IMG/VR virus record: IMGVR_UViG_3300025102_000071
Span: 1-43,423 of that record
Reading direction: 5' to 3' (one strand)
Source: a virus
DNA: 43,423 nucleotides
The notes below the pieces were generated by a model. That model searched no databases. It saw only the letters and a list, made by a program, of their open reading frames with translations, and had not been told where the DNA came from. The first letter of the stretch is position 1. The number at the start of each line of letters is the position of its first letter. Below are positions 14,036 to 31,747 of the stretch, one piece after another. A program made the translations under genes and the position numbers.

Positions 14036-14036
14036 A

Positions 14037-14866: not shown

Positions 14867-15112
14867 CTACCATTGCCAGACAGAGTTCATCTGATCTACG
14901 TAAGATGTAAGGTTCTTATAAGGTACACGTTTATACCCTAAAGCTTTTAGCTCTTCTGTCACAGCATCTTCGGCAGACTTACGTGCTTCCATAGCAAGAC
15001 GTAGTCCCTCTAGCTTCCTGTTCTTATAGGCTTTCTTCATGGACGCTAGTTTAGTTTCCATAGTCTTAATCTTCTTTTCCATTTCTTCTAGTGTGGCTGT
15101 TGTCTCTGTCAT
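14867..15112 (-). CDS. small coiled-coil protein
   Basis: 81 residues, with a long lysine/glutamate-rich heptad helix over the first 55 (LEEMEKKIKTMETKLASM) and a short C-terminal domain YKRVPYKNLTSYVDQMN. The start overlaps the exonuclease stop as ATGA, and the stop lies one base before the GTG of endonuclease I, so it is probably co-translated with both nucleases. An accessory role to one of them is an inference. Confidence 0.65.
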   Translation of the reverse strand: MTETTATLEEMEKKIKTMETKLASMKKAYKNRKLEGLRLAMEARKSAEDAVTEELKALGYKRVPYKNLTSYVDQMNSVWQW

Positions 15113-15972: not shown

Positions 15973-15975
15973 GGC

Positions 15976-16884: not shown

Positions 16885-16918
16885 GTATTATCTCCTTATA
16901 ATTTCGAAAAGTGTTATA

Positions 16919-16947
16919 GTTATACCATCATACATCTTTGGTGTCAA
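16919..16947 (-). promoter_or_regulatory. sigma70-type leftward promoter for the putative SSB gene
   Basis: On the minus strand TTGACA (16947-16942), a 17-base spacer and TATAAC (16924-16919). The -35 is a perfect match and the -10 is 5/6. It lies at the very end of the polymerase gene, just before the 16884 start. Predicted transcription start near 16912, leaving a short leader with the AAGGAG site. It shares its -10 with two other leftward promoters. Confidence 0.6.
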
Positions 16948-18961: not shown

Positions 18962-19446
18962 TTGTTTTCCTTTAGTTGTACCAGTTCTGCTTCTACATAG
19001 GGTATGTGAAAGAAGTGTTCGTACCTTCTAGCATTAGATAGGTAAACTTCTTGCACAGTTTCAGGTGTAAACTGATAGTCTTTTATTCTCCATGCACATT
19101 CCATGTCACCTCTTATAACATAGAAGTTAAAATATGCATCTACTTTTTTCATCTCTTTAAACTTATTTAACAATTTAAATTTACGATAGGGAATCCTAAT
19201 CTCAGTCCAAGATGGTAGCCAATCCCCAAACCACTGTCTCTTCATCTCTACCTCTGAGAAGTATAAGTGTCCGTCCTTCTCACTCTTTACATCAAAGGAG
19301 AAGTCTTCCTCTGTGGACAGTATCTTATGCCCATTATTAATTAAATAATTAGACACTGCTTCTTTTGCTACACCATCATTCTTTGCATAGGAATGAGGTC
19401 TAAACTTTCTGGTGTATGCACCACTGATAGGTTTAAATGTATTCAT
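18958..19446 (-). CDS. possible PD-(D/E)XK-fold nuclease-like protein
   Basis: 162 residues between helicase and polymerase, with ATGA overlaps at both ends. After a basic N-terminus a helix (GVAKEAVSNYLINNG) is followed by a strand FSFDVKSEKDGHLYFSEVEMK. This offers a D ... E-x-K arrangement (FDVK then EVEMK) of restriction-endonuclease-like folds. Later strands VDAYFNFYVIRGD also suit such a fold. Activity is unproven; it could be a structural relative without catalysis. Tight linkage to polymerase suggests a replication role. Confidence 0.5.
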   Translation of the reverse strand: MNTFKPISGAYTRKFRPHSYAKNDGVAKEAVSNYLINNGHKILSTEEDFSFDVKSEKDGHLYFSEVEMKRQWFGDWLPSWTEIRIPYRKFKLLNKFKEMKKVDAYFNFYVIRGDMECAWRIKDYQFTPETVQEVYLSNARRYEHFFHIPYVEAELVQLKENK

Positions 19447-20666
19447 GCTGTGTACCTCGCTGTTTTGTAGTCTAGTTCACAGACAATCTTACCATGCCAA
19501 CCAGACAGTTTGTTTTTCACCACGTTGATATGTCTCTGTGGTGACTGTTCTTCTTCACCTTCAACGTCAGGGTTCTTGGCAAGTAATAGCATAAGGTCTG
19601 CTTCGGCAGCCTTACCTGTTCTACTACCTTCCATCATGGCTTGGTTAAGTATAACCTTACCTTCTGCTTCAGCAGATAGCTGTGACATATAGAATATAGC
19701 ACAACCATACTGCTTGGCAATCATTCTTGCATGGACTGCATTTGCTTTGAGTGCTTCATCTTGCCTAGCAAATCCTGATGTCTTGGCAAACTTGTCACCC
19801 ATATCTAATACAACAACATCAGGCTTAAAAGATTTAGCAATGCTCTCAACCCAAGACATGTCACGTCCTGTGGAATCATACAGTTTTATATTCTCCTTGA
19901 CTACACCATACTTCTCATGGGCAAGCTTGGGATTATCTTTGATCTCGTATTGATTCATATTAGAACTGGCAGTCAGGTATCGCATACCCACTCTATGCAC
20001 TGACTCTTCGTTACATAAAACAACACACTTAGCACCCTGCCTAGCAAAGCCCTGCTCTCCTGCAATCATAGATGCATGGAAAGAAGTCTTACCTGTGTTG
20101 GGTCTAGCTCCAACCTCTATCAGGTGTCCTTCGTTTACACCCTCTATCTTACGAGTCAAGCTAGGTATGTTAAATGCCCAACGTGCTTCCATGTCATTCC
20201 TTGCAAGAAGATTCTCAATAGATATGTCAGCCCATTCTATATTCATAGAGGGTATGAAGTCATCTCCATACTGCTCTAACAGATTACGGAGTGGCTCAAG
20301 GCTAGTCTGTGAACCATTCACATAATCAAACCCAAGGTTTGCTACCTCTTCACCTACCACTTGCTGAAATAATTTAGACAGGACTTCCTGTGCTATGTCG
20401 CTACCAAGTGGTGATTCTTTTTTGATACGTGAGAACAGATCCCCATATGCACCCTTCTGTGCTGTGGTAAGGGTAGGGTTGTTTGACATAAACAATACCT
20501 CTACCTCGTCTGGTGTTACTGTCCTGTTGTATGTCTTCATGGCATAATCAACAGAGTTTTTTATCTTTCGCATGTCCTTACTAAATAATTTGTCAGGGCA
20601 ACGAATACCTCTGTGATCATCGTAGAAGTCTTTAGTCATCAGACTACGTATTAATGCTTGTTCCAT
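19443..20666 (-). CDS. DnaB-type replicative DNA helicase
   Basis: 407 residues, hexameric RecA-fold helicase expected to unwind the fork. The N-terminal 150 residues are a helical domain as in DnaB. Walker A is GARPNTGKTS at 186-195 and Walker B VVVLDMGD with D288. The segment CNEES after a strand is the usual catalytic glutamate region, then FYMSQLSAEAEG and the late block VVKNKLSGWHGKI, where K/R finger residues lie. Together with the separate primase it replaces the fused T7 gp4. The start overlaps the primase stop by 23 bases, with a GGAG 9 bases upstream. Confidence 0.9.
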   Translation of the reverse strand: MEQALIRSLMTKDFYDDHRGIRCPDKLFSKDMRKIKNSVDYAMKTYNRTVTPDEVEVLFMSNNPTLTTAQKGAYGDLFSRIKKESPLGSDIAQEVLSKLFQQVVGEEVANLGFDYVNGSQTSLEPLRNLLEQYGDDFIPSMNIEWADISIENLLARNDMEARWAFNIPSLTRKIEGVNEGHLIEVGARPNTGKTSFHASMIAGEQGFARQGAKCVVLCNEESVHRVGMRYLTASSNMNQYEIKDNPKLAHEKYGVVKENIKLYDSTGRDMSWVESIAKSFKPDVVVLDMGDKFAKTSGFARQDEALKANAVHARMIAKQYGCAIFYMSQLSAEAEGKVILNQAMMEGSRTGKAAEADLMLLLAKNPDVEGEEEQSPQRHINVVKNKLSGWHGKIVCELDYKTARYTA

Positions 20667-21435
20667 TTAATTCATCTCCTATTGCTGTTAGTTTTTCAAT
20701 GTCGTTAGGGTGTTGGTATTTAAGATCGTCTTTTAATCTAATCACTCGTACTGTATCCACTACACTCGATAAATCTTTACATATCTGCAATCCTTTTGGT
20801 AGGGCATCAGGATCTAGGGCAACTACTATTGCAGAGAACTGTGACAAGTACCTCTTGTGTATGTCTGATAGTGACGTGCCTAACACAGCAACCCCAACAT
20901 ACACGCCACTACCTACAACTACGGCACTGACACAATCCTCCACAACTACAGCGATCTTACCATGTCCACGAACATAAGGCAAGCCACTATTCCCATATCT
21001 TTTCCACTTAGGTAATTTATTTTTTAAACTCCTACCTATTGCATCTACTATAATACCATCATGCTGTATGGGAAACACAGCACGATTATCCTTTACATCA
21101 TGCCACATCTCAAATGTCTCTGCATTTAAGTTGTACCTACTGGCAAACCTAGCAAGCTCACTGTTGTTTCTGTTTGGTACAATAAACTCTGGCATAACAA
21201 ACTGCTCTGCTTTCTTTTCCTCTTTGTGTATTGTTCTCTTAATATCATCAATGGACAGATGCACAGGCTTCGACCCACTGATACTGCACGATACCTTATA
21301 ACAATTCCACAACAGTCTGCCCATGTTGTTTGATATAGTAAAGGTCTTATACCCACCACACTCAGGACAATTCATTCTCTTTGTTTCATTATTTAATATA
21401 TCTATATCACTTATAATGTTATATATATTATGCAT
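20644..21435 (-). CDS. DNA primase (zinc-binding plus TOPRIM)
   Basis: 263 residues from the ATG at 21435, chosen because AAGGAG lies 8 bases upstream; an in-frame ATG at 21471 would give 12 more residues. N-terminal zinc site C23, C26, C45, C50 (CPEC ... CYKVSC). A TOPRIM-type core has E166 in VVVEDCVSA and D208/D210 in VALDPDA. It makes RNA primers and acts with the helicase that follows. It overlaps the end of the recombinase by 8 bases. Length fits the primase half of a split primase-helicase. Confidence 0.9.
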   Translation of the reverse strand: MHNIYNIISDIDILNNETKRMNCPECGGYKTFTISNNMGRLLWNCYKVSCSISGSKPVHLSIDDIKRTIHKEEKKAEQFVMPEFIVPNRNNSELARFASRYNLNAETFEMWHDVKDNRAVFPIQHDGIIVDAIGRSLKNKLPKWKRYGNSGLPYVRGHGKIAVVVEDCVSAVVVGSGVYVGVAVLGTSLSDIHKRYLSQFSAIVVALDPDALPKGLQICKDLSSVVDTVRVIRLKDDLKYQHPNDIEKLTAIGDELNGTSINT

Positions 21436-22513
21436 TGTATTTACTCCTTGTGTTGAGAGCATTCTTAGCACTCTCGTAAGTGTGTTTCATGTACGGCTTG
21501 ACAGATTGTACATTTGTGTGACCTGTCACTGACATAAGTTGCCCCATTGGGACACCACTGTCAATCATTTCTGTAACTCCTGTCCGTCTGAGATCCATAA
21601 GTCGGAGTTCATCAGGCAGGTTTAAATGCTTCATGACACGCTTGGCAATCTTTGATACACTCTCCAACCCATAGGGCTTGTACTCGCCCTGTATGGGGCT
21701 TACATTGGGAGCTACGTACTGTTGAAAGCCAAAGTCACCCTGTTGTTCATACAGCATGTCATACAGGCTGTCACTGATAGGCAGAAACACCTTTGATCTA
21801 CGCTTGGACTGCTCTAATGTGAGCATACCTTTGTCCATGTCAAGGTCATTCCAAGTGAGCAGTCTCATGTCACCCACTCTCTGACACCATTCGTATGCCA
21901 TCTGCACGATCAAGCCAATGCTTCTGTACTCATAGTTTGCATAGGCATAGTCAAGAAATTGACGGACATGTTCCTTTGCCCACACTACACGTCTAGGTTT
22001 AGTAGATTTACGTCTTATGTTAGAGAAGGGATTGTGATTCCCATACTCCATCTCAGTCGCATAGTTGTAAATCCGTGATGCAATACTGCACACATGGTTT
22101 GCAAGTGACACACCACGTCTGACCCAGAGTTCATAAGTCCTCTTAGCCAACCTACTAGATATAGTATGCCACTTTTTGTCACCTAAACTGTGACATAAGA
22201 TCTTAATAAAGTAGATGTAATCAGCTTTAGTTGAGTCACGTAATACATTGAAATCATTAGACAAAAGATACATGTCACATAATTCTGACAGGCTAGTAGA
22301 TCGTGTGACCACTGACTCTGTCAACATTTCTAGACGATAGTCATCTATCAATTTGTTCAATTCATCTGCAACTTTTTTTGCTTCATTAAAATCTTTACCA
22401 AGTTCCTTGCGAGATACAATACCACTGTCAATAAGTTGACGAGGGGGACTGAACCTGAATGTCCGATCCCCCTTGGGTGTGTACCTCTTGTACATGTAGC
22501 GAGGTAGATTCAT
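21428..22513 (-). CDS. int: tyrosine recombinase / integrase with altered active site
   Basis: 361 residues. An N-terminal arm-type and core-binding SAM-like region (about 1-180) precedes the catalytic domain. Visible catalytic residues: R in CQRVGDMR, K in QSKRRSK, second R in MDLRRTG, H in VTGHTN, and nucleophile Y in KPYMK. The usual first His of the HxxR box is replaced by Met (LMDLRR), read directly from the DNA. It lies inside the replication operon, first before primase, not beside an obvious attachment site. It may integrate the phage or resolve genome multimers; I cannot tell which. Confidence 0.85.
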   Translation of the reverse strand: MNLPRYMYKRYTPKGDRTFRFSPPRQLIDSGIVSRKELGKDFNEAKKVADELNKLIDDYRLEMLTESVVTRSTSLSELCDMYLLSNDFNVLRDSTKADYIYFIKILCHSLGDKKWHTISSRLAKRTYELWVRRGVSLANHVCSIASRIYNYATEMEYGNHNPFSNIRRKSTKPRRVVWAKEHVRQFLDYAYANYEYRSIGLIVQMAYEWCQRVGDMRLLTWNDLDMDKGMLTLEQSKRRSKVFLPISDSLYDMLYEQQGDFGFQQYVAPNVSPIQGEYKPYGLESVSKIAKRVMKHLNLPDELRLMDLRRTGVTEMIDSGVPMGQLMSVTGHTNVQSVKPYMKHTYESAKNALNTRSKYNA

Positions 22514-23367
22514 TAAGCAGCAACCAGTTCTTTGAACTGCTTAGAAGACACCCATTTGGTAACTTCCTGCTCACGTCCCCACATACTCACTGAGTTAGTG
22601 TCGTTGCCTGTGTTACGTAGCTTGAAGCCATTACGCTCATCTGCATAGGATGCATAGTTAGTGAACGCTGAGTACAAAGCAAAGGCATTGTGTCCTCTTG
22701 TCTGTATCTCTTGTCCATACAATCCAAGCATCTTGTCACCTTTCTTCTCCGATCCCATGAGAGAGTGAAGCATATCTCTTACAGAGTTGTACTCCAGAGG
22801 AGTGTTAGCCCATACTTGTAGCTGTTCAGCTTGTGAATAGAAATCACTATTAGCATTCTCTAACTCTCTGATAAAGGTAGACATGTTGAAGTTAGTAGTG
22901 TTCTTTCTTCGCACCTTGTCATGCTCACCTCTGATCATGCCGTTTGTGCAGAAGAAATCTATAGCACCAAAGAATACTTGGTTAGAACACAGACCGTCCA
23001 CACCATGCAGGGCTATCACTCGTTGTGATATCTCTGTCTGTTGCTTGTCGGTTGTGATCACTGCCTTAGTGCTAGGCATAGATGCATCAAGCATAGCGAA
23101 TGCACCATTACGTGCATGATTCCACTTTACATTTGCACCTTCCATTGCTTCATCACCAAGCTGTTCAGACATAGTTCTGCACACATTGTCAAAGAACTCC
23201 TTGTGTGTAACAGAGTTAAACTTACTACCAACAATACCTAACACTTCATCAGTGTCATTGTTGATAACATATTTCTTACCTTGCATACGTGTCTTCTCAG
23301 TACGTGTAGTAAAGTCTAAGTAAATTGGAAGTTCTCCAAGTGCATTGTTTGTAAAATCTAAAGCCAT
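22513..23367 (-). CDS. DUF932-like phage/plasmid protein
   Basis: 284 residues. The pattern YVINNDTDEVLGIVGSKF, then HGVDGLCSNQVFFG with FFCTNGMI, and a C-terminal AFTNYASYADERNG matches the DUF932 / TIGR03299 group of phage and plasmid proteins with unknown function. GGAGAACTAAC precedes the ATG, and its stop overlaps the recombinase start as TAATG. It heads the replication operon that runs through to the reductase, after a 65-base AT-rich gap. Confidence 0.65.
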   Translation of the reverse strand: MALDFTNNALGELPIYLDFTTRTEKTRMQGKKYVINNDTDEVLGIVGSKFNSVTHKEFFDNVCRTMSEQLGDEAMEGANVKWNHARNGAFAMLDASMPSTKAVITTDKQQTEISQRVIALHGVDGLCSNQVFFGAIDFFCTNGMIRGEHDKVRRKNTTNFNMSTFIRELENANSDFYSQAEQLQVWANTPLEYNSVRDMLHSLMGSEKKGDKMLGLYGQEIQTRGHNAFALYSAFTNYASYADERNGFKLRNTGNDTNSVSMWGREQEVTKWVSSKQFKELVAA

Positions 23368-23432
23368 GTTAGTTCTCCTTGTGTTGTTGTGTTATGTGTT
23401 AAAGATATACTATATAAATAATTAATCAAGTA

Positions 23433-23864
23433 CTATTTTTCCCAACGATAAAATATATGTCGGTCAATTCTTGTCGTTCTGGTTTTTGTCTTCGCCCATG
23501 CAGGTCTTACGTAGGTAGCATGGTAATGTGTAGCACCTTCGGTAACATCAAGCATGATTGTGCCTGACAGAACAATGGATGCATACTCTTGTGCATTCCA
23601 CCATTCTTTGCTGTCATATAAAGGCTCGTCCTTTTGTCCGTCACAGTACCAACTGAACTGGCACTTGTGAAGTACAGGTTTGTCTGTGCCTTTGTATGTA
23701 ATAGCTTGTGTGACTACATCACATACATTATCAGGAAACCTAGTGTCCTCTACCCTGTTCATAACAACTTGCCCTACTGCTATCTGCCCAAGCATAGATT
23801 GATTCTTTGCTTCGTGATACATGTTCAGTGCCATGCACATAAATGCTGTTTCTAAGATAGCCAT
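23433..23864 (-). CDS. SleB-like cell-wall hydrolase
   Basis: 143 residues from the ATG at 23864, chosen because GGAG lies 7 bases before it; a GTG at 23906 is an in-frame alternative. Hydrolase_2 (SleB) signature: ALNMYHEAKNQSMLGQIAVG with the catalytic Glu in YHEA, VVMNRVEDTRFPDNVCDVV, CQFSWYCDG, THYHATYVRPAWA and a terminal RIDRHIFYR. It cleaves peptidoglycan. Its place in the leftward block, far from the holin and M15 endolysin on the other strand, is unusual. Short membrane ORFs precede it. Confidence 0.85.
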   Translation of the reverse strand: MAILETAFMCMALNMYHEAKNQSMLGQIAVGQVVMNRVEDTRFPDNVCDVVTQAITYKGTDKPVLHKCQFSWYCDGQKDEPLYDSKEWWNAQEYASIVLSGTIMLDVTEGATHYHATYVRPAWAKTKTRTTRIDRHIFYRWEK

Positions 23865-23944
23865 TTGCCTACTCCATCTCCTATTACTGCCAACATGAAT
23901 ACCCACATGGTTAGCAGTAATGCTAATTTTAAATCCTCATTCAT
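23852..23944 (-). CDS. 30-aa single-span membrane micro-ORF
   Basis: The ATG lies at the upstream gene's stop (TGATG) and the ORF ends 13 bases inside the hydrolase gene. It begins MNEDLKLALLLTMWVFML, with one membrane span of about 18 residues and a short GDGVGKW tail. No separate SD; coupling is the likely route. It resembles the ORF at 24435-24524 (both have E then LLLTM). A tiny holin-like partner of the hydrolase is an idea only; it may also be chance. Confidence 0.35.
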   Translation of the reverse strand: MNEDLKLALLLTMWVFMLAVIGDGVGKWLS

Positions 23945-24438
23945 CAGGCAGCCATCCATTCAGGCATGGATCTGCCCTTGGTATAACGTGCAAACTTGAG
24001 CTTGTCTGCTTTGTAGAACTCACGGTATGCTTTGATGGGCAAGAACTCGTCTGTCTTCAAGTGATCAAGACCACTGAAGCATTGTGGGTGCTGAGTTAAA
24101 TCTCCGATAGGTATAAACTTTATGCCTTTATACAAAGCATCACTATGCTTAGATGCACCATGCACCTTGCCATATCTATGTGTGTACTCTCTCAACATAG
24201 CTGAGTATAGCAAATAGGCAAACAAATAGTTGGCACTTGTTTCCATAGCCCACAGTGTACAAGGGTGCTTCTGGTGTACTGGTTTGTACAGGTCACATTC
24301 CTCTGCATACTCAGGTGCATGATGCCACAGTGTAGTACATAGCATCTGTGCTTCTTCAAGTGGCATCTTTACAATGTGCTGATCACACAGCGACTTTGCA
24401 ATCTCGATTGTAGTTTCTTCTATAATAAATCTATTCAT
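23944..24438 (-). CDS. conserved phage protein of unknown function
   Basis: 164 residues. The block CDQHIVKMPLEEAQMLCTTLWHH, then HPCTLWAMETSANYLFAY and LREYTHRYGKVHGASKH, recalls a family common in marine phages with CDKHVVKM and YTYRYGK motifs. Conserved His, Cys, Tyr and Arg suggest an enzyme, but no activity is established to my knowledge. AGGAG lies 7 bases before the ATG. A promoter (24472-24500) sits just upstream. Confidence 0.6.
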   Translation of the reverse strand: MNRFIIEETTIEIAKSLCDQHIVKMPLEEAQMLCTTLWHHAPEYAEECDLYKPVHQKHPCTLWAMETSANYLFAYLLYSAMLREYTHRYGKVHGASKHSDALYKGIKFIPIGDLTQHPQCFSGLDHLKTDEFLPIKAYREFYKADKLKFARYTKGRSMPEWMAA

Positions 24439-24524
24439 ATAAATACTCCTATGGTTACGTTAGTTATTAATGTTATAAGTATGACAAGCACCATTGTCAA
24501 TAGTAATGCCTGTCCCTCAGTCAT
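24435..24524 (-). CDS. 29-aa single-span membrane micro-ORF
   Basis: It starts within the last codons of the 24517 gene (8-base overlap) and its TGA overlaps the next ATG (ATGA). It begins MTEGQALLLTMVLVILITL, and almost the whole peptide is one hydrophobic span. Overlaps at both ends favour a real gene. However, a TTGACA-17-TATAAC promoter occupies bases 24472-24500 of the same stretch, so the open frame may be a by-product. Confidence 0.35.
   Translation of the reverse strand: MTEGQALLLTMVLVILITLITNVTIGVFI
24472..24500 (-). promoter_or_regulatory. sigma70-type leftward promoter
   Basis: Minus strand TTGACA (24500-24495), 17-base spacer, TATAAC (24477-24472). It has the same -35, spacing and -10 as the promoter at 16919-16947. 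Predicted start near 24465, which would serve the 24438 gene and the hydrolase operon. It lies in a gap of 78 bases between larger genes. Confidence 0.55.
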
Positions 24525-24753
24525 GGCAGAAGTTCCTGAACCATTTGCATTTGTTATCCCCCTTGCACACTCGTTCATGCTTGGCATTCTCCCAACACTC
24601 TGACTGCCAAGGTGAGAAATACTTGGTAGTAAATCTGTCCACCCAATCCTGTCCGTCTACTGCCCACAGTCCTAGTACAGGCAGTGGTATCAACAGTAAG
24701 AACACTACAAAGAATGCCATGCCAAAGCCTTTATTGTGATATGGTTTATTCAT
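24517..24753 (-). CDS. small membrane protein with cysteine-rich exported tail
   Basis: 78 residues from the ATG at 24753, chosen because GAGGAG lies 8 bases before it; an in-frame ATG at 24774 is less likely. One strong span at about residues 11-33 (GMAFFVVFLLLIPLPVLGL) is followed by a hydrophilic tail with four cysteines (SECWEN, RVCKGD, NKCKWF, NFCHD). A membrane-tethered domain is predicted. No family recognised. Confidence 0.6.
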   Translation of the reverse strand: MNKPYHNKGFGMAFFVVFLLLIPLPVLGLWAVDGQDWVDRFTTKYFSPWQSECWENAKHERVCKGDNKCKWFRNFCHD

Positions 24754-25099
24754 TTTCAAATCTCCTCTTATCATTTTGCAAAATATAAATAGATCTATCT
24801 AAACCAGAAACCATTTGATCTCTCCATTGTTGACTTCTGATCTCAGGTTTCTCATCAATGTATACTCTTATATGAGTGCAAGCATCAATTGGTGCACCTT
24901 TATCCCAATAGGTATCAGGGTACTTAACCTTATCTAAGTACTGCCCTTTAACTTTAATATTATAAACGTGTCTATTGAGATATTTTCTCAATGACTTTAC
25001 CAATTGCTTACCCTCTTCATCATTTGGAATCTCACAGAACTGATAACGTGATCTCTTCTGGTAGTGCTTATGCTTTTCTAAATTAGTTTTATTACCCAT
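24746..25099 (-). CDS. hypothetical protein
   Basis: 117 residues from the ATG at 25099 (MGNKTNLEKHKHYQKR), which overlaps the upstream stop by 8 bases. The frame is open back to 25201, but that part is the shadow of the 61-aa gene. The body has helical and strand elements (LVKSLRKYLNRHVYNIKVKG) and an aromatic-rich end. Function unknown. Confidence 0.6.
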   Translation of the reverse strand: MGNKTNLEKHKHYQKRSRYQFCEIPNDEEGKQLVKSLRKYLNRHVYNIKVKGQYLDKVKYPDTYWDKGAPIDACTHIRVYIDEKPEIRSQQWRDQMVSGLDRSIYILQNDKRRFENE

Positions 25100-25277
25100 A
25101 CTGCACCACCTGTCCTGTGTTCCACTTGTCTGCTTCCTTCTGTGCGTCCTCATGGGTGTCGAACAGCTTGATAGGACTCTTGTCATCCCACATAGCTCCA
25201 CACCCTTGCTTCACATACTCTAAGCCGTCTGCTTCAAACGGCTCAAAGACTACTGCATACTGTACAAGTTTAATCAT
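25092..25277 (-). CDS. hypothetical small protein
   Basis: 61 residues starting MIKLVQYAVVFEPFEADGLE with a KLFDTHEDAQKEADKW helix. This beta-beta-alpha layout looks like a compact folded domain. The start overlaps the upstream stop by 8 bases (ATG within the last codons), and the end overlaps the next gene. No family assigned. Confidence 0.6.
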   Translation of the reverse strand: MIKLVQYAVVFEPFEADGLEYVKQGCGAMWDDKSPIKLFDTHEDAQKEADKWNTGQVVQYG

Positions 25278-25557
25278 GTATCACCACCTCTGTTTCATTT
25301 GTTAATCCAACAGGGAAACCTCTGTCAAAATAAAAGTTCATTATGTTTAGGACTTCGTCCCTTGCATCATCATCCTTGAATGCATCTCTCAAGGGTAGCT
25401 CCTGTATTCTACTGGCATGTCTGACTGTATCATACAGCTTGTCATACAGGGACAGCCATGTGTATTTGTTAAGTGTTACCTTTGTTGGTACATGTTCTGA
25501 TAATTTAGTAGGCATATCAGGATCATGCCCAAGTATTTTACTCATCTGTGTACTCAT
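25270..25557 (-). CDS. hypothetical small protein
   Basis: 95 residues, mostly helical (YTWLSLYDKLYDTVRHASRI; FKDDDARDEVLNIMNFYF). It overlaps the methyltransferase stop by 4 bases and the next start by 8, so it is firmly in the operon. No domain recognised. Confidence 0.6.
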   Translation of the reverse strand: MSTQMSKILGHDPDMPTKLSEHVPTKVTLNKYTWLSLYDKLYDTVRHASRIQELPLRDAFKDDDARDEVLNIMNFYFDRGFPVGLTNETEVVIHD

Positions 25558-26570
25558 GAATATACTCCTTCTAATATGTGCGAGATCACTGCACGAGTGA
25601 AGCCATTGCCGATCATCTTGTAGCGTTGGCTGTTTGATATTGGTCTTACCTCTCCAAGGTAGCCATACTTGTGGTCAAACTCACCATACTGTGTCCACAG
25701 ATCTGGTAGTGTTTGTAAGCGTTCACACTCTAGTGGTGTCAATGCTCTCCAACCTAGTTGGTCTGAACCCATTGTGCCTAGTGTAGGTACTTTAGGCATT
25801 CGCCATCCACCTTGCATAGTAGTTAGGGTAGGACTCTTGCCTTGCCTAGAGTAGACACGCTTGATTATGTCATAGCCTTTGAGGTCAGCTTCACCTATCT
25901 GCTTGCATCTATCAAGCCTGTCAGTAGCAAAGACTACTTGTCTGCGAGACTTCTCAAAGTACATCTTCATGCTACCACCTTTGAAGTAGTTGGCATCAAT
26001 GCAGTAGGACTTATCTCTGTCGGTCATACTGTTATCTTCTAGTATGTCCTGTAGTACAATGCCCTGATCGGCAAGATCACCATGAGGTATGTTAGTTATG
26101 TAGACACGCTTTCTAGATTGAGCAGATACCTTGGCACTGTCATGTGTATACATCTCTGCACTACGAATCTTGCTAACATTCTTGTACCAGTCATGCTTGG
26201 CTTTGGACTCTACATTCTCAAAGAGAAAATGTGTAGGATTTAAACCTTCCAATGCATCATACATAACCTGAGATAGATCACGACTGTCTGACGTGCCTTG
26301 CATCCTACCTGCCACGCTGTAAGGCTGACAGGGAAAACCTGCAAGCATAAGAAAGACATCTCTGCCCTTCAGTATGTCCCAACCATTAGCGTCACCATGG
26401 TGGATAGCATGAGGTATCCTGTATCTGGAAACGGCACTAGCATACTTGTCTGTTTCGAATGTGTGGTATTCGTAGTCACCATCAGGTGATACATCAATAC
26501 CTGCATCAAGGCATGATAGGTAAGCACTATCTGTACCACCACATAGACTAACTATTATTTTTTTAGTCAT
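25554..26570 (-). CDS. dcm: C5 cytosine-specific DNA methyltransferase
   Basis: 338 residues. Transfers a methyl group to C5 of cytosine, probably to hide phage DNA from host restriction. Motif IV is GFPCQPYS with catalytic C81; motif VI is ENV at 118-120; motif VIII is QSRKRVYI (151-158); motif X is MIGNGFTRAVISHIL near the end. Motif I (SLCGGTDSAYLSCLDAG) departs from the usual DLFxGxGG. The target-recognition region lies at about 190-290 and its target cannot be read from sequence. No restriction enzyme gene accompanies it, so it is an orphan enzyme. Confidence 0.9.
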   Translation of the reverse strand: MTKKIIVSLCGGTDSAYLSCLDAGIDVSPDGDYEYHTFETDKYASAVSRYRIPHAIHHGDANGWDILKGRDVFLMLAGFPCQPYSVAGRMQGTSDSRDLSQVMYDALEGLNPTHFLFENVESKAKHDWYKNVSKIRSAEMYTHDSAKVSAQSRKRVYITNIPHGDLADQGIVLQDILEDNSMTDRDKSYCIDANYFKGGSMKMYFEKSRRQVVFATDRLDRCKQIGEADLKGYDIIKRVYSRQGKSPTLTTMQGGWRMPKVPTLGTMGSDQLGWRALTPLECERLQTLPDLWTQYGEFDHKYGYLGEVRPISNSQRYKMIGNGFTRAVISHILEGVYS

Positions 26571-26751
26571 TATAGTTCTCCTTATTCATTTTCATAAACT
26601 CCATTGCTCTTTTCTTGGCTCTGTTCTCTAATACCTTAGACCTCTTGTCACCTATTACTTTGTGTATCAAGATGCCCTGTGTCACCATCTCTGCATGAAG
26701 CAGATTACGTGGTCTTTTCGGCATTGGTTTTTTGTTTATAATTTTAGCCAT
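26563..26751 (-). CDS. hypothetical small basic protein
   Basis: 62 residues, lysine- and arginine-rich (MAKIINKKPMPKRPRNLL; RSKVLENRAKKRAMEFMK). It has a GGAGATAGCC leader and overlaps the methyltransferase start by 8 bases. A nucleic-acid or host-protein binder is possible. No family recognised. Confidence 0.6.
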   Translation of the reverse strand: MAKIINKKPMPKRPRNLLHAEMVTQGILIHKVIGDKRSKVLENRAKKRAMEFMKMNKENYND

Positions 26752-26761
26752 TGGCTATCTC

Positions 26762-27004
26762 CTAATGATATGTTTGTACTGATGTTGGTGCTTCATAGAC
26801 ATAGCCTACGTCTGGCTCATCATCAAGTGTATACTCTTTGATAAAATCAAACTCGACTACTGCATCTGGGTAGCACATCTCTGTAAGATGCAAGGCATAC
26901 TCAATAGCAGAAGGTGTACCCTTCCTGACAAGAGGGTGAGAGCTACCAACTCTCACCACACCTCGTTGACCATCTACTGAGATAAATATCTCATAGTGTA
27001 TCAT
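26762..27004 (-). CDS. hypothetical small acidic protein
   Basis: 80 residues, predicted alpha/beta (IHYEIFISVDGQRGVVRVG; DAVVEFDFIKEYTLDDEPD). It lies 2 bases after the stop of the 104-aa gene and 10 bases before the next start. No domain recognised. Confidence 0.6.
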   Translation of the reverse strand: MIHYEIFISVDGQRGVVRVGSSHPLVRKGTPSAIEYALHLTEMCYPDAVVEFDFIKEYTLDDEPDVGYVYEAPTSVQTYH

Positions 27005-27006
27005 GG

Positions 27007-27321
27007 TTAGGCTACCTTCTTCTGTATGAGGAAGGACTTGATTGGCACATAGCTTGCCACTCTTCGTTTGCCTTTTCTATCATAGGCATGGAAGGAAGAG
27101 TAGGACTTGCCAAAGTTCAAGCGAACCAAAGGCTCACCAGACTTGCCACCTTTACCCTTACGGATAAACCATCCTGTTTCTTGGATGTTATCATCCCTGT
27201 AGATTACAGGCTTGTATCCCTGTAGCTTTAGCTTGATAGCTGTAGCAATTAATTTTACAGCAGTAAAACCACCAGAGATTTTTTCTCCCTTAGGAAGATC
27301 GTCAAAGTTAAATGTAAGCAT
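27007..27321 (-). CDS. hypothetical protein
   Basis: 104 residues starting MLTFNFDDLPKGEKISGG, with a basic middle (GWFIRKGKGGKSGEP) and a C-terminal strand YVPIKSFLIQKK. AAAGGAG precedes the start. It is the first gene behind the leftward promoter at 27380-27408, whose transcript would also carry the conserved palindrome in its leader. Function unknown. Confidence 0.6.
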   Translation of the reverse strand: MLTFNFDDLPKGEKISGGFTAVKLIATAIKLKLQGYKPVIYRDDNIQETGWFIRKGKGGKSGEPLVRLNFGKSYSSFHAYDRKGKRRVASYVPIKSFLIQKKVA

Positions 27322-27344
27322 ATGAATGCTCCTTTCATGTTAGT

Positions 27345-27360
27345 GTCCCAATGTTGGGAC
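27345..27360. repeat. 16-bp palindrome, copy 1 (GTCCCAATGTTGGGAC)
   Basis: First of five near-identical palindromes between 27345 and 29891. This copy is non-coding, about 20 bases beyond the -10 box of the leftward promoter 27380-27408. That is a good place for a repressor or activator site at the start of the transcript, or for a leader hairpin. The two central bases vary (AT here, CG in three other copies). Confidence 0.7.
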
Positions 27361-27379
27361 TGTTGGTTTATGTATTACA

Positions 27380-27408
27380 GTTATATAATACTTTCATATT
27401 CATTTCAA
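27380..27408 (-). promoter_or_regulatory. sigma70-type leftward promoter with palindrome downstream
   Basis: Minus strand TTGAAA (27408-27403), 17-base spacer, TATAAC (27385-27380). It lies in a 95-base gap between genes. Expected start near 27373, so the palindrome at 27345-27360 falls in the first 30 bases of the transcript. The -10 is identical to those at 16919 and 24472. Confidence 0.55.
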
Positions 27409-27416
27409 GTATTATA

Positions 27417-27791
27417 TTAACTGTATACTTTAACTGAAGGTTTGCCTTCAGCCGTAGTTGTCAGCCAGATAGACCCTACCTCACTAACTGGTTCACCATT
27501 GTCTACATAGACAAAGGTATCGTTCTTATAAGGGTTATAGGTCACAGACCTACCCTCATCATGGTAGAACTTGGGACTAATCCAGATTTCTGGATACCAT
27601 CCCTCTGCAAATGCATGGACGTTCTTCTTCCCTTCGAGAAGTACACGCTGTCTGCCACCCTGACGGACATTAAAACTGCCCACCAGTAGGAACAGTTCTG
27701 GCTGTCTGCCAACAACCAAGCCTGTCTGTCTATCTTGGATAGACCATTGACCTTTGTGTAAGTTCCAATATGCTCTTGCATTTATGTCCAT
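27417..27791 (-). CDS. hypothetical protein
   Basis: 124 residues, tryptophan- and tyrosine-rich, predicted mostly beta (YWNLHKGQWSIQDRQTGLVV; NVHAFAEGWYPEIWIS). The stop lies just before the promoter at 27380. The start overlaps the upstream stop by one base. Several short perfect inverted repeats lie in the gene (27434-27451, 27499-27514). Function unknown. Confidence 0.6.
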   Translation of the reverse strand: MDINARAYWNLHKGQWSIQDRQTGLVVGRQPELFLLVGSFNVRQGGRQRVLLEGKKNVHAFAEGWYPEIWISPKFYHDEGRSVTYNPYKNDTFVYVDNGEPVSEVGSIWLTTTAEGKPSVKVYS

Positions 27792-27934
27792 TAAGCTACT
27801 CCCTTCTGACGTAGTCTCTGTTTACGGACAAGCCTTCTCTCTCTCAAGAGAGAGTGCTTATCTCTTCTATCTGTCCCAACGTTGGGACTGTTTGGTTTCT
27901 TATTAACTTTTTCAAAGTTACTATTACTTTGCAT
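27791..27934 (-). CDS. hypothetical small very basic protein
   Basis: 47 residues from the ATG at 27934 (MQSNSNFEKVNKKPNSPNVG), which overlaps the upstream stop by 11 bases. The C-terminal half is arginine-rich (LLRERRLVRKQRLRQKG), suggesting nucleic-acid binding. The SPNVGT residues are encoded by copy 2 of the conserved palindrome. Function unknown. Confidence 0.5.
   Translation of the reverse strand: MQSNSNFEKVNKKPNSPNVGTDRRDKHSLLRERRLVRKQRLRQKGVA
27873..27888. repeat. 16-bp palindrome, copy 2 (GTCCCAACGTTGGGAC)
   Basis: Perfect copy inside the 47-aa gene, where it encodes S-P-N-V-G-T on the minus strand. Its retention inside coding DNA shows that the nucleotide sequence itself may be selected. 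Confidence 0.7.
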
Positions 27935-28184
27935 TTGCCTTCTCCTTGATGTGACCCATATGTGTATACATATCTCTGGCATCTTTCTGATACTCATTCA
28001 ATTTCTTGAATGCTCTCAATAGATGGACTACGTCCATATCTCTGACAGGAATATATCTATTCTTTGAATCAGAGTAGTATGCTCCGTCATACTCTCTGTC
28101 TGAATGATAATGACGAATGTCATACATATCCTCTGGTAGTTTCTCAACTACCTCTAATATTTTTAAGATATCTTTTACTCTCAT
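27924..28184 (-). CDS. hypothetical small protein
   Basis: 86 residues (MRVKDILKILEVVEKLPEDM; YIPVRDMDVVHLLRAFKKL). Helical and charged, with no membrane segment. Its ribosome site GGA lies in the loop of a 6-bp hairpin just before the ATG (28187-28201). Several hairpins run through the gene (27995-28012, 28136-28151). No family recognised. Confidence 0.6.
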   Translation of the reverse strand: MRVKDILKILEVVEKLPEDMYDIRHYHSDREYDGAYYSDSKNRYIPVRDMDVVHLLRAFKKLNEYQKDARDMYTHMGHIKEKANAK

Positions 28185-28186
28185 AT

Positions 28187-28201
28187 TTAAACTCCGTTTA
28201 A
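28187..28201 (-). promoter_or_regulatory. ribosome binding site in hairpin loop (for the 28184 gene)
   Basis: On the minus strand TTAAAC GGA GTTTAA forms a 6-bp stem with GGA as the loop. The ATG follows 2 bases after the stem. It has the same design as 28904-28916 and 29069-29085. Confidence 0.5.
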
Positions 28202-28902
28202 TGTTCAGACAGATGTACTATCTGAGTTCTGTTAATAGTCTTCTGTGAAAAGCATCCTGCTTTACACACACTGCAATGTCCAGACAATTTCTTGTGTGTC
28301 TTAGGACACAAGAACATTCTCTGCTTATAGACAGGATCTTCGATCATGTCATCATCACCAAAGAACATGATGTTCCAATTACTGTCAATCAAAGATTGCC
28401 ACTCATCCTTCGTATTAGAAGGATCAAGAGAAGCATTGACAGCTACGTTAGGCAATGGCATTAGCTCAATCTCTATAAGAGATTTCAGTAATGTATTTCT
28501 CCAAGCTCTAGTAGGTAGCCAGATAATACTATCTGGAGCTTCAAGAGCCATCTCTTTGATACGATAGATATCAGAGATATCTTTGATACCTTCACCTCTG
28601 GTGCAAGCTCTGACTCTCTTGGTCTGCTTCTTTCTTTTAGAAAGCCAAGAGTAGAAGCTAGATCTGATCTCCTCTGGAGTCATCTTCTGCCAGACTGTTT
28701 CACATCTGTCATCTCTGACAGACATATTAGGATACATTCTGTACAACTTTACGTTGTAACAAGTTGTATCACAGTAGTCAGTTCTATGATCACAAGTTCC
28801 CTTGTGATTCTCTGTGTCATTGATAGGTCTGTCCCAAGCAAACATATCAATGTCATCACAATATCTGAATAGGTCAGAATATTCTTTGGTAGTAACTGTC
28901 AT
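28198..28902 (-). CDS. GP88-like phage protein with two cysteine clusters
   Basis: 234 residues from the ATG at 28902, 5 bases after GGAG; a TTG at 28926 is an unlikely alternative. N-terminal cysteines in KGTCDHRTDYCDTTCYNVK and C-terminal ones in MFLCPKTHKKLSGHCSVCKAGC bracket a helical domain with IIWLPTRAWRNTL and VAVNASLDPSN. This layout recalls the phage GP88 family (PF17338-type), whose role is unknown. The cysteine groups could bind metal or an Fe-S cluster. The gene is dense in short inverted repeats. Confidence 0.55.
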   Translation of the reverse strand: MTVTTKEYSDLFRYCDDIDMFAWDRPINDTENHKGTCDHRTDYCDTTCYNVKLYRMYPNMSVRDDRCETVWQKMTPEEIRSSFYSWLSKRKKQTKRVRACTRGEGIKDISDIYRIKEMALEAPDSIIWLPTRAWRNTLLKSLIEIELMPLPNVAVNASLDPSNTKDEWQSLIDSNWNIMFFGDDDMIEDPVYKQRMFLCPKTHKKLSGHCSVCKAGCFSQKTINRTQIVHLSEH

Positions 28903-28903
28903 T

Positions 28904-28916
28904 TTAACTCCGTTAA
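28904..28916 (-). promoter_or_regulatory. ribosome binding site in hairpin loop (for the 28902 gene)
   Basis: Minus strand TTAAC GGA GTTAA: a 5-bp stem with the Shine-Dalgarno core in the triloop, one base before the ATG at 28902. The conserved palindrome copy 3 lies 4 bases further upstream. Confidence 0.5.
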
Positions 28917-28919
28917 TTT

Positions 28920-28935
28920 GTCCCAACGTTGGGAC
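28920..28935. repeat. 16-bp palindrome, copy 3 (GTCCCAACGTTGGGAC)
   Basis: Perfect copy in the gap before the GP88-like gene, directly upstream of its hairpin ribosome site on the leftward transcript. It could be an operator or a leader structure. Confidence 0.7.
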
Positions 28936-28949
28936 TGCTTCAGTTCAAG

Positions 28950-28995
28950 TAATATATTTATTTACTTCACTCATACTGAGTGAATAAATATATTA
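28950..28995. repeat. long AT-rich inverted repeat
   Basis: Outer arms TAATATATTTATT (28950-28962) and AATAAATATATTA (28983-28995) are perfectly complementary. Inner arms CACTCA (28968-28973) and TGAGTG (28977-28982) close on a TAC loop. Only a 5-base bulge (28963-28967) breaks the 19-bp stem. It lies between a micro-ORF stop and the GP88-like gene. It could be a processing site, terminator-like structure or replication element; it has no U-tract. Confidence 0.65.
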
Positions 28996-29067
28996 GGTTA
29001 CATATAATAAGATTGTCAAGCCAATAAATATGGCAAGACATCCAAAGATGTCTTCAAATGATATCAT
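28993..29067 (-). CDS. 24-aa single-span membrane micro-ORF
   Basis: Starts MISFEDIFGCLAIFIGL and is nearly all one hydrophobic span. It has a strong GGAG 7 bases before the ATG, presented in a hairpin loop (29069-29085), which argues for real translation. It follows the 27-aa micro-ORF by 13 bases. No homologue recognised. Confidence 0.45.
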   Translation of the reverse strand: MISFEDIFGCLAIFIGLTILLYVT

Positions 29068-29068
29068 G

Positions 29069-29085
29069 TTTAATCTCCGATTAAA
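29069..29085 (-). promoter_or_regulatory. ribosome binding site in hairpin loop (for the 29067 micro-ORF)
   Basis: Minus strand TTTAATC GGA GATTAAA: a perfect 7-bp stem with GGA as triloop, one base before the ATG. It is the strongest of three such arrangements in this region. Confidence 0.5.
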
Positions 29086-29164
29086 GTTTAAAACCACCAC
29101 TCAACCAGTAGCAATAAGCTACTGGAAGAGCAACTAAAATTATTATGGATAATAATTCAATCAT
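29081..29164 (-). CDS. 27-aa single-span membrane micro-ORF
   Basis: Its ATG overlaps the stop of the 214-aa gene (ATGA), so it can be translated by re-initiation. It begins MIELLSIIILVALPVAYCYW, one hydrophobic span, then SGGFKL. The DNA consists almost wholly of two strong inverted repeats (29105-29125 and 29138-29157), so structure and peptide are both constrained. Function unknown. Confidence 0.45.
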   Translation of the reverse strand: MIELLSIIILVALPVAYCYWLSGGFKL

Positions 29165-29805
29165 CCATCTGTTCCAGTTTTACTGGAAGAAGCATCATCA
29201 AACATATTGAAAATATGTTCAAGCACTTCATCTTTATCAAACCCAAGTTTGATAGAGAGCTTGTAAACATACTCAGCAAACTCTAAAGAGTTCTGAGGAA
29301 CTTTAACCTTCTGAACCTTCTTAGGTTCATCTGTAGTCCCAACGTTGGGCTTCTCATCAACCTTAGTTGATGGTTTAGCAGATGATTTATCATCTGTCTT
29401 CTCAACCTTGGGTTGAGTTTCAAACTTGAATGCTTTCAGCATTGCTGTTAGGGAAGTGAAAGCAATCTGTTGCTTTCTCTTTTTGACAACTCTACCTTTG
29501 AGCCATTCTTGAATGGCATCAAAGTTTCTGTAAAGCTGTAAGCTTTCACTTCTTCTCTGAGAAGCAACTTTGTTCATCGAGGTTGCTTGCAACCTTTCTG
29601 ATGATATTCTGCCATTCTCACTCTCTAGAGTGAGTTCATTTATCAACTTACCAAGTTGGTAAGCTAAACCATTAAAGACAACGTCTTTAGTGTTAGCCTT
29701 CTCAAGGCTACCTATTCTGTCTTTCTCTAGCTTGGCTAGAGCAGAACCTCTCTCTTCAAGAGTTCCAGTAAAGTTTTCGAAAGCTGTTGTTGTTTGATTT
29801 GGCAT
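29161..29805 (-). CDS. first gene of the leftward block; unknown protein encoded by hairpin-dense DNA
   Basis: 214 residues. The N-terminal 150 are helical and polar (GSALAKLEKDRIGSLEKA; NEWLKGR-type basic patch near 100-115 with VVKKRKQQIAF). A low-complexity K/T/S/D/P linker (about 135-170) leads to a C-terminal helical domain (EYVYKLSIKLGFDKDEVLEH). AGGAG lies 8 bases before the ATG. In 645 bases I count about 20 perfect inverted repeats with 5-8 bp stems, plus palindrome copy 4, which encodes PNVGT. As first early gene it may act on the host. I do not recognise the family. Confidence 0.65.
   Translation of the reverse strand: MPNQTTTAFENFTGTLEERGSALAKLEKDRIGSLEKANTKDVVFNGLAYQLGKLINELTLESENGRISSERLQATSMNKVASQRRSESLQLYRNFDAIQEWLKGRVVKKRKQQIAFTSLTAMLKAFKFETQPKVEKTDDKSSAKPSTKVDEKPNVGTTDEPKKVQKVKVPQNSLEFAEYVYKLSIKLGFDKDEVLEHIFNMFDDASSSKTGTDG
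29336..29351. repeat. 16-bp palindrome, copy 4 (one mismatch at the end)
   Basis: GTCCCAACGTTGGGCT, inside the 214-aa gene. The inner 14 bases keep the palindrome except for the last outer pair. It encodes P-N-V-G-T on the minus strand, as copy 2 does. Confidence 0.65.
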
Positions 29806-29875
29806 TATATTAACTCCTATTTTATATACCCTTTTACCTAAAGGACAAGGGTTATAAAATGGGAGTATATAAGTA

Positions 29876-29891
29876 GTCCCAATGTTGGGAT
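29876..29891. repeat. 16-bp palindrome, copy 5 (GTCCCAATGTTGGGAT)
   Basis: One mismatch in the outermost pair. Non-coding, in the leader about 70 bases before the first leftward gene. Confidence 0.65.
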
Positions 29892-29908
29892 ACGTTAGTT
29901 GTTTACAA

Positions 29909-29932
29909 CTAAACTATGCATCGGCTCTTCAT
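29909..29932 (-). CDS. possible 7-codon leader peptide
   Basis: ATG at 29932 with a strong GAGGAG site 4 bases upstream, encoding M-K-S-R-C-I-V then TAG. It overlaps hairpin 29895-29912 and precedes the 214-aa gene. Such a short ORF with a strong ribosome site can act as a leader peptide, but chance is quite possible. Confidence 0.25.
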   Translation of the reverse strand: MKSRCIV

Positions 29933-30253
29933 TTTCTCCTCAATTCTTTAGAATTGCAGACTTTTACAAGCTCCAGTTGCTTGCAACTGATGTGATAACA
30001 GTTGTTTACTAGAAATATATGCTTATATTTCAGTAACTTACACTACCTATGGTAGTGATTTGCTTGTTTCTGATCTTGACCAAGTCTTCGAATCATAAGA
30101 CTGCATGACTGCCCTATAGGGGCAGGGGGCAGAGCAGGGGTAGGCGTTATATGCATGTACAAATACACAGATCAGGAATTTTGAGTGTTAACCACTTTTA
30201 CATATATGCAGAGACTGCTGCCAAATATTTGACTAAAGCGGCTAAGATTACAT

Positions 30254-30282
30254 TTGACATGAAACACAATACATGGTATAAT
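30254..30282 (+). promoter_or_regulatory. perfect sigma70 promoter for the rightward block
   Basis: TTGACA (30254-30259), a 17-base spacer, TATAAT (30277-30282): full consensus. Predicted start near 30289, giving a leader of about 130 bases before the first rightward gene. It implies host RNA polymerase reads these genes without a phage factor. Confidence 0.75.
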
Positions 30283-30421
30283 TATATATAACTAGTTTTA
30301 AGAGAACATATAAAGTGATACACTTAAATGTTTATTCATTAAAAATAAATTTACACTTATATGATACATTCTAAATGTACGTAGATAGATATTTCTCCGT
30401 ATAATAAAAAAATTATTGACA

Positions 30422-30649
30422 ATGAGCAAAAAATCCGTAAAACTATACACAGATAATGTCATAGAAGCATTCTATGATGCTGTTGCAAATAACAACCTTG
30501 ATAAACTTCACATACCTCACAGTGATGTATTCTACGTAAGAGCTGCAGTGGAAGCCCACTATGGCAGATCCTTTACTTTAAAAGAAGTTGAAGATGCTAT
30601 GATAGCTGAAGGTTGGTCAGAGAATAAGGATCTACAGGAGGAAGTATAA
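30422..30649 (+). CDS. hypothetical small protein, first rightward gene
   Basis: 75 residues from the ATG at 30422 (MSKKSVKLYTDNVIEAFYDA). A TTG at 30416 is the alternative. No purine-rich ribosome site is visible just before it, so initiation may be weak. The helical, charged sequence includes EVEDAMIAEGW. The stop is adjacent to the next ATG. Function unknown. Confidence 0.6.
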   Translation: MSKKSVKLYTDNVIEAFYDAVANNNLDKLHIPHSDVFYVRAAVEAHYGRSFTLKEVEDAMIAEGWSENKDLQEEV

Positions 30650-31747
30650 ATGGCATTTGGTAAAGTTGTAAAAGCAGCACTAAAGAAGAAAAAACCTAAG
30701 AAGAAAACAGTTAAGGTAGACGCAGCAGAAAAAAAGCCTATTCAAAAAAGACAATTTAAAAAAGATTATGAAGTAGATATAGGTAAGCCTAATCCTACAG
30801 ATAGTAAGATACGTGATATGCCCCAAAGAAAAGTCCGGGGTACTTCAGGTAGAGCTGCAGACGCAGGATCTGACCCTATCGTAGTAGGATCAAAGTCTAT
30901 GCCAAGCTTTGCTGATGTTAATGCTGCATCAGGTGCTAAAAAATCTAAACAAAAACTTAAGCTTCAAAAACTTGCTGATGATGGAAACAAAGTTGCTGCG
31001 GCTACATTAAAAAAAATAAAGAAGGCAGAAGCCCAAGCTGAAGATGATAGGAATAGAAAAAGTGCTATAGGCAGAGCAGGAACAAAGAAAGTTCCAGATG
31101 GTACTTATGTGCATAAAGAGAATGGTTTAACCTATGACATAGATTCTTCTGATGTAAGAGTAAAGAAACTTCCAGAAGATATAGAAAACTACTATAGAAA
31201 TCCTACACCTAATCAATTAAACCAAGTTGCTAGAAATATAGCAGCTAGGCGAAACATTAAGAAACAAGGGGAAGATCAAAAGGCGGCTATCAAAAGATTG
31301 GAGATTCAACTTACAAATAAAATAAATAGAGAGAAAGGAAGAGATGTAGGAATAGACATCAAAAAAGGACTCACAGATGCTGAGAAGAAAAAATTAGGGC
31401 TAAAACAAGGAGGAATGGCTATGAAGAAAAAAGGTTACGCTAAAGGTGGAATGACTAAGAAGAAAAAAGGTATGGCACGAGGGGGTGCTATGAAGAAAAA
31501 AGGTATGGCAATGGGGGGACTCAAGAAACCTGCTGCAGGACAAGCAGGACTTAAGAAGTTACCTACTACTGTACGCAATAAAATGGGTTATGCCAAGAAC
31601 GGTGGCATGATGAAAAAGAAGGGCATGGCTAAAGGTGGCATGAAGAAGAAGGGCTACGCAATGGGTGGTATGAAAACTACTTATAGAGTTGGTGGCATGG
31701 TCAAAGGAAAAATGTACGGAAGTGTTGACAATAAAAAGAAGAAGTAG
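30650..31747 (+). CDS. lysine-rich protein with C-terminal KKKG(M/Y)A.GG repeats
   Basis: 365 residues, extremely basic. The N-terminus is AALKKKKPKKKTVK; the middle is helical and charged. The last 110 residues carry at least six repeats of the form M-K-K-K-G-(M/Y)-A-(K/M/R)-G-G (31400-31720). Similar repeats are common in marine phage proteins. They suggest DNA or RNA binding, perhaps a DNA-condensing virion or packaging protein. GGAGG lies 6 bases before the ATG. The last codons contain a perfect promoter for the next gene. Confidence 0.65.
   Translation: MAFGKVVKAALKKKKPKKKTVKVDAAEKKPIQKRQFKKDYEVDIGKPNPTDSKIRDMPQRKVRGTSGRAADAGSDPIVVGSKSMPSFADVNAASGAKKSKQKLKLQKLADDGNKVAAATLKKIKKAEAQAEDDRNRKSAIGRAGTKKVPDGTYVHKENGLTYDIDSSDVRVKKLPEDIENYYRNPTPNQLNQVARNIAARRNIKKQGEDQKAAIKRLEIQLTNKINREKGRDVGIDIKKGLTDAEKKKLGLKQGGMAMKKKGYAKGGMTKKKKGMARGGAMKKKGMAMGGLKKPAAGQAGLKKLPTTVRNKMGYAKNGGMMKKKGMAKGGMKKKGYAMGGMKTTYRVGGMVKGKMYGSVDNKKKK

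Follow-up and report, generated by a model that had tools for sequence, protein, structure and literature searches.

The sequence analyzed here, IMG/VR virus record IMGVR_UViG_3300025102_000071 in its entirety (43,423 nt, hereafter the window), contains a 2.7-kb array of short perfect hairpins at the head of a leftward gene unit. This unit, from ~30.1 to 11.4 kb, carries the replication genes, and the structural genes point rightward. Its first long gene encodes a 214-amino-acid (aa) protein that we call F0, and the array continues leftward through several smaller genes and the non-coding DNA between them (Table 1). The DNA polymerase encoded in the window shares 65% aa identity over its full length with that of Puniceispirillum phage HMO-2011 and 63–64% with those of the roseophages CRP-345 and CRP-1; the helicase, integrase, ribonucleotide reductase, terminase and portal/head-tail proteins also gave phage-family matches, and the gene order is that of HMO-2011. 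Judged by its sequence, the source virus is an HMO-2011-type marine podophage, although its record is possibly incomplete (43 kb, compared with ~54 kb for its relatives). Phages of this type constitute one of the ocean's dominant virus groups (PMC9038755).

Table 1. Features in the head region of the leftward unit (positions in the window)
Feature	Position	Strand	Remarks
Hairpin array	27434–30125	-	Over 50 short perfect hairpins, whether the DNA is coding or not; weak tail reaching ~26835
124-aa gene	27417–27791	-	Pfam Phage_L5_gp82 (PF25735); 5 hairpins
86-aa gene	27924–28184	-	5 hairpins
Shine-Dalgarno GGA triloop hairpin	28187–28201	-	Stem 6; before the 86-aa gene
234-aa gene	28198–28902	-	Pfam GP88 match (PF17338); 10 hairpins
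Shine-Dalgarno GGA triloop hairpin	28904–28916	-	Stem 5; before the 234-aa gene
24-aa open reading frame (ORF)	28993–29067	-	Shine-Dalgarno within a hairpin loop
Shine-Dalgarno GGA triloop hairpin	29069–29085	-	Stem 7; before the 24-aa ORF starting at 29067
F0 (214-aa gene)	29161–29805	-	First long gene in this unit; array peak, 18 hairpins
Promoter-like element GTGGTTAACA-N12-ATCTGTGTATTT	30161–30195	-	Head of the leftward unit; first hairpin ~36 nt downstream
Consensus sigma-70 promoter TTGACA-17-TATAAT	30254–30282	+	Perfect consensus; points rightward, away from the array; no hairpin excess on that side

Hairpins were scored as maximal perfect inverted repeats and compared with two shuffle controls, one preserving dinucleotides and the other permuting the synonymous codons of each gene and thus retaining its protein and codon usage. 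When stems of at least 6 bp with loops of 2–8 nt were counted, the intervals 27001–28000, 28001–29000 and 29001–30000 contained 13, 16 and 26 hairpins per kb against 1.5–2.2 expected from dinucleotide shuffles (z = 10, 9 and 20), and z in the remaining 1-kb bins of the window ranged from about −1.6 to 4.1. Stems of at least 6 bp with loops of 2–6 nt were also tested against both types of shuffle. The 18 hairpins in the F0 gene compare with a codon-shuffle mean of 2.06 (standard deviation, 1.25; maximum, 6 in 300 shuffles); the corresponding means were 1.24 for the 234-aa gene, 0.79 for the 124-aa gene and 1.29 for the 86-aa gene, and genes elsewhere in the window mostly gave z values between −1.1 and 2.4. 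The first hairpin of the array lies at 30109–30125, and density declines leftward. When the leftward RNA was folded locally, the minimum-energy structure contained 46 of the 56 array hairpins, compared with 16 of 38 chance hairpins from positions 14001–26000, and relative to sequence-matched shuffles the folding energy had z values of about −3 to −7 in most 200-nt steps along the array, whichever strand was folded. A preliminary description of this DNA had claimed a hairpin-dense stretch and had named shuffles keeping protein and codon usage as the check; the density was not reproduced by such shuffles, and the claimed boundaries were good except for the weak tail beyond them. Chance, base composition or codon usage has practically no probability as an explanation: both shuffles and the retention of the trait across divergent phages rule it out, and nothing was found in its favor. 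Rfam covariance models found nothing at E ≤ 1 in positions 26500–31000.

A hairpin peak was observed at the equivalent place in HMO-2011, CRP-1, CRP-345 and many viral contigs, the arrays of these three cultured phages being weaker. CRP-9 showed a weak rise at most, and the array was absent from CRP-603, CRP-3, HTVC033P, CRP-2, CRP-207 and one freshwater relative. In a mean profile of 80 contigs anchored on the conserved 77-aa rightward neighbor gene, the rightward side was flat; on the leftward side density rose within a few hundred bases, peaked at 1–1.5 kb and reached background by ~4.5 kb. The 234-aa gene is rich in hairpins where it lies ~1 kb from the unit's start (the window, L004 and L012) and ordinary where it lies ~3 kb away (L013 and L016–L024), which indicates that hairpin density is set by distance from the start and not by gene identity. 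The two blocks of the GTGGTTAACA-N12-ATCTGTGTATTT element had identical spacing in all 78 loci where both were found, and the onset of the array was sharp, ~40–100 nt past the element across loci. By its appearance the element looks like a promoter; array-less phages also carry it. The array recurs within the HMO-2011-type group and is confined to a leftward early transcript whose start we infer. The sigma-70 hexamers facing away from it are also visible in aligned relatives. Directly after the GTGGTTAACA-N12-ATCTGTGTATTT element, at 30100–30160, lies a G/C-rich block (CCCC...GGTGGCCCCTGCC in the leftward sense), beyond which the relatives' alignment ends; it could be the initial transcribed region or a cos/pac site.

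The excess was limited to stems of 6–8 (9) bp and loops of 2–5 nt, with 3 nt the commonest loop, and no enrichment was detected for stems of at least 10 bp or loops of 0–1 nt. One hairpin occurs per 30–40 nt, leaving short single-stranded gaps. Stems and loops are diverse and mutually unrelated, and GGA accounts for 17 of 205 distinct triloops. The loop-adjacent pair was C-G in 190 cases and G-C in 52. On the coding strand, G..A triloops numbered 65 against 21.7 expected (p = 2e-16) and G..A tetraloops 29 against 9.7, whereas the reverse-complement forms numbered 26 against 18.5 (not significant) and 8 against 9.7, respectively; these hairpins are non-redundant by sequence, the contigs are related and the p-values are nominal. 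The bias had the same direction in all five clades. Because of this strand asymmetry, we consider the leftward-coding strand to be the one that folds.

One palindrome, GTCCCAACGTTGGGAC (or with a CA/TG center), occurs in five near-identical copies at 27345–27360, 27873–27888, 28920–28935, 29337–29350 and 29877–29890, mostly ahead of genes and once within F0. It is the only array stem sequence that recurs, and its exact copies are confined to close relatives (4–9 matches listed per locus, both strands counted). Its sequence is conserved, which sets it apart from the other hairpins; possible roles are an operator or a mobile leader. The clade of L013 and L016–L024 carries, in addition to the array, repeated hairpins of greater length, up to 12 bp, on CGGAATTTCCG-like cores. 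A leader block (~28899–28996 in the window) is present in two or three copies in the array region of L004–L010, each ahead of a different small gene, an apparent case of gene gain through leader duplication. Just downstream of the array, a DNA methyltransferase gene (25554–26570) belongs to the same leftward unit.

Alignment of relatives for compensatory change, another check named in the preliminary description, bore out its view that self-complementarity is kept and not sequence. Two-base differences in stems were compensated in 49 of 149 comparisons, against an estimated ~3% by chance, and two-sided stem changes led to Watson-Crick pairs in 61% of cases, compared with 31–41% for slid pairings. 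Mismatches were rare in the stem interior. Changes in one arm only numbered 42 against a binomial expectation of 77, compared with 783 against 537 in control segments; a few multi-base gains in one arm were observed, for example between L101 and L102.

The placement of the hairpins is closely related to the ribosome-binding sites. Of 107 Shine-Dalgarno GGAGs in array regions, 39 are presented as a triloop plus the closing G (C-GGA-G) on varied stems of at least 4 bp, a layout found in none of 301 control genes and in none of 46 genes from the same zone of array-less phages. A Shine-Dalgarno GGA lies in a triloop in 31 of 80 cases, compared with 23 of 666 for other GGA, an 11-fold difference. 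Only 1 of 139 Shine-Dalgarno sites falls in a stem, against a stem cover of ~20%. These data indicate that hairpin placement respects and uses the ribosome sites, and this is the strongest reason for regarding RNA as the relevant molecule. The leftward strand, singled out in the preliminary description, was upheld by the coding-strand loop bias and by the Shine-Dalgarno sites in loops. A further suggestion was a decoy for host RNA-binding factors; a sponge made of GGA loops was not seen, given the rarity of GGA triloops away from Shine-Dalgarno sites.

The array is also associated with F0. All 20 loci without F0 had at most 4.1 hairpins per kb, and the 38 loci with F0 had 2.6–18.8 per kb outside the F0 gene, ~30 of them clearly raised, in a comparison uncorrected for phylogeny. 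Since no array occurs in loci that lack F0, F0 is a candidate partner of the array. Density peaks inside F0 in most clades; in clade A it is still above background ~2–3 kb beyond F0. Distant relatives of F0 occur in HMO-2011 (gp74), CRP-1 and CRP-345. An AlphaFold model of F0 is all-helical with moderate confidence and matched no solved structure, and a PDB profile search, Foldseek against PDB and viral libraries, Pfam, NCBIfam and PHROGs returned nothing useful on function beyond its own family.

The explanation that we favor, while giving it slightly less than an even chance, is that the array is a selection-kept, 5′-proximal chain of small hairpins in the leftward early messenger. Among the meanings offered in the preliminary description, a structured early RNA fits best, as something we infer, and a packaging element found no supporting evidence. 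The hairpins likely form in RNA, and formation in single-stranded DNA (ssDNA) of the coding strand is possible. With short single-stranded gaps, attack by single-strand endoribonucleases, Rho loading and annealing to DNA or RNA would be hindered; local folding might thereby, as a less certain step, deny host endoribonucleases, Rho and antisense or R-loop pairing long single-stranded stretches in the first messages of infection. Ribosomes would find the loop-displayed GGAG and open the 6–8-bp stems during translation. The ceiling on stem length would keep the stems openable by ribosomes and shorter than those that RNase III usually cuts, and F0 could be the partner protein of the folded message. 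A broader proposal, which we advance tentatively, is a sequence-independent "hairpin code", in which the first-expressed mRNA of a double-stranded DNA phage, with a 6–8-bp hairpin every 30–40 nt in coding and non-coding parts, ribosome sites in loops and a dedicated early protein F0, would serve as an RNA shield or handle against host RNA surveillance during the first minutes after infection.

Several observations weigh against this interpretation. One-sided stem changes gave G-U in 318 cases and A-C in 340 (25 and 17 in the stem interior), unlike ordinary conservation of RNA structure, and the lack of a preference for G-U over A-C in evolution weakens the case for selection on RNA only. Pointing the other way, toward RNA, the G-U:A-C ratio among standing hairpins with one internal mismatch was 38:26 in arrays compared with 8:21 in the background; strand asymmetry of G-U, used to discriminate RNA from DNA, gave an ambiguous outcome. 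The preliminary description had taken four GNRA loops (28136, 28705, 27995 and 28789) as a hint of RNA-level structure. The four loops are correct, but GNRA is not generally preferred over GNYA (25/2028 versus 22/1958) and is raised only with a C-G closing pair (C(GNRA)G, 10/46; C(GNYA)G, 5/67). UNCG loops were not preferred. Finally, six phages with a divergent F0 (L097, L103, L104, L137, L143 and L153) have little or no array.

The absence of a G-U preference is one of the points that agree with the chief rival, a rather unlikely one in our estimation, in which hairpins form in coding-strand ssDNA near an origin at ~30.2 kb, either in the template for lagging-strand synthesis at a leftward fork or in a strand that leading-strand synthesis or an R-loop has displaced. 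Density would then fall with distance as the time spent single-stranded falls. The one-sided gradient, the loop optimum of 3 nt with frequent 2-nt loops, and the strong C-G closing bias together with G-N-A triloops are in line with this; the latter two features are needed for extrusion of the DNA hairpins at the virion RNA polymerase (vRNAP) promoters of phage N4 (PMC4496689). However, G-N-A loops and C-G closure show no joint effect beyond their separate ones, the origin is hypothetical, and the 11-fold preference for Shine-Dalgarno GGA in loops points to translation. N4-type vRNAP promoters themselves are disfavored, since the stems and loops are diverse, in contrast to the conserved N4 sequence. 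No RNA polymerase gene was matched among the window proteins scanned (part of the ORFs, in a record that may be incomplete).

Another explanation, which we hold to be unlikely, is that the hairpins are sites for F0. In this view F0 would bind RNA (or ssDNA) by recognizing hairpin shape and, as an autoregulator or antiterminator, would coat its own early message or regulate it. The co-occurrence of array and F0, the density peak inside F0 and the G..A loops common to all clades agree with this explanation, but F0 has no recognizable nucleic-acid-binding fold in a model of moderate confidence, the co-occurrence is uncorrected for phylogeny, the six phages with divergent F0 variants have little or no array, and the array of clade A extends well past F0. 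An improbable explanation is a mutational process without selection, namely template switching at quasi-palindromes near a replication or transcription hot spot, also suggested in the preliminary description. Perfect stems, high turnover, the lack of a G-U preference and the few multi-base one-arm gains are compatible with it; the deficit of one-arm changes is not, and Shine-Dalgarno placement, the coding-strand loop bias and the stem-length ceiling need selection.

If the favored reading of a structured early messenger is true, the array represents a new means by which phages control or protect early expression, a message-wide constraint on structure that spans several genes, is graded by distance and is tied to one early protein. 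It would help to define how much structure an mRNA tolerates while still being translated, and the cultured phages CRP-1, CRP-345 and HMO-2011 make it testable. We found no description of hairpin arrays of this kind in phages in the open-access literature, nor any described system there that combines message-wide mini-hairpins with Shine-Dalgarno sites in loops, and two published descriptions of HMO-2011-type phages do not mention hairpins in their text.

Several known systems share individual features with the array. The N4 vRNAP promoters resemble it in their short stems, 3-nt G..A loop, C-G closing pair and location in a podovirus early region (PMC4496689), but N4 has three sequence-specific promoters compared with more than 50 unrelated hairpins here, whose G..A loops are found on the same strand as the coding sequence of the gene that follows. 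Sponge RNAs of the CsrB/RsmZ type likewise have multiple hairpins per molecule, a part of them with GGA loops; here GGA loops occur mainly at Shine-Dalgarno sites and most loops are not GGA, and a CsrA-type sponge was rejected on these GGA counts. Repetitive extragenic palindromes and bacterial interspersed mosaic elements (REP/BIME) are also palindromes in succession, whereas the array stems differ from one another and only GTCCCAACGTTGGGAC recurs. In phage T4, the GGAG of early messages can be a target of the nuclease RegB, and RNA structure has been reported to protect GGAG from it (PMC3014915). A hairpin array running through coding regions is not known from T4. The T4 RegB/S1 system and the array both concern the GGAG of early phage messages, although no RegB-like nuclease was identified in this phage. 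Genome-scale ordered RNA structure (GORS) of positive-strand RNA viruses is similar in that pairing pervades coding sequence, is independent of motif and is selected beyond codon choice. Folding energy lower than in matched shuffles across long coding segments, a mark of GORS, was likewise recorded for the array. GORS, however, is diffuse, known from RNA genomes and found throughout them, whereas the array belongs to a double-stranded DNA phage and consists of discrete 6–8-bp hairpins within ~3–4 kb at the start of one unit, with a distance gradient and Shine-Dalgarno sites in loops.

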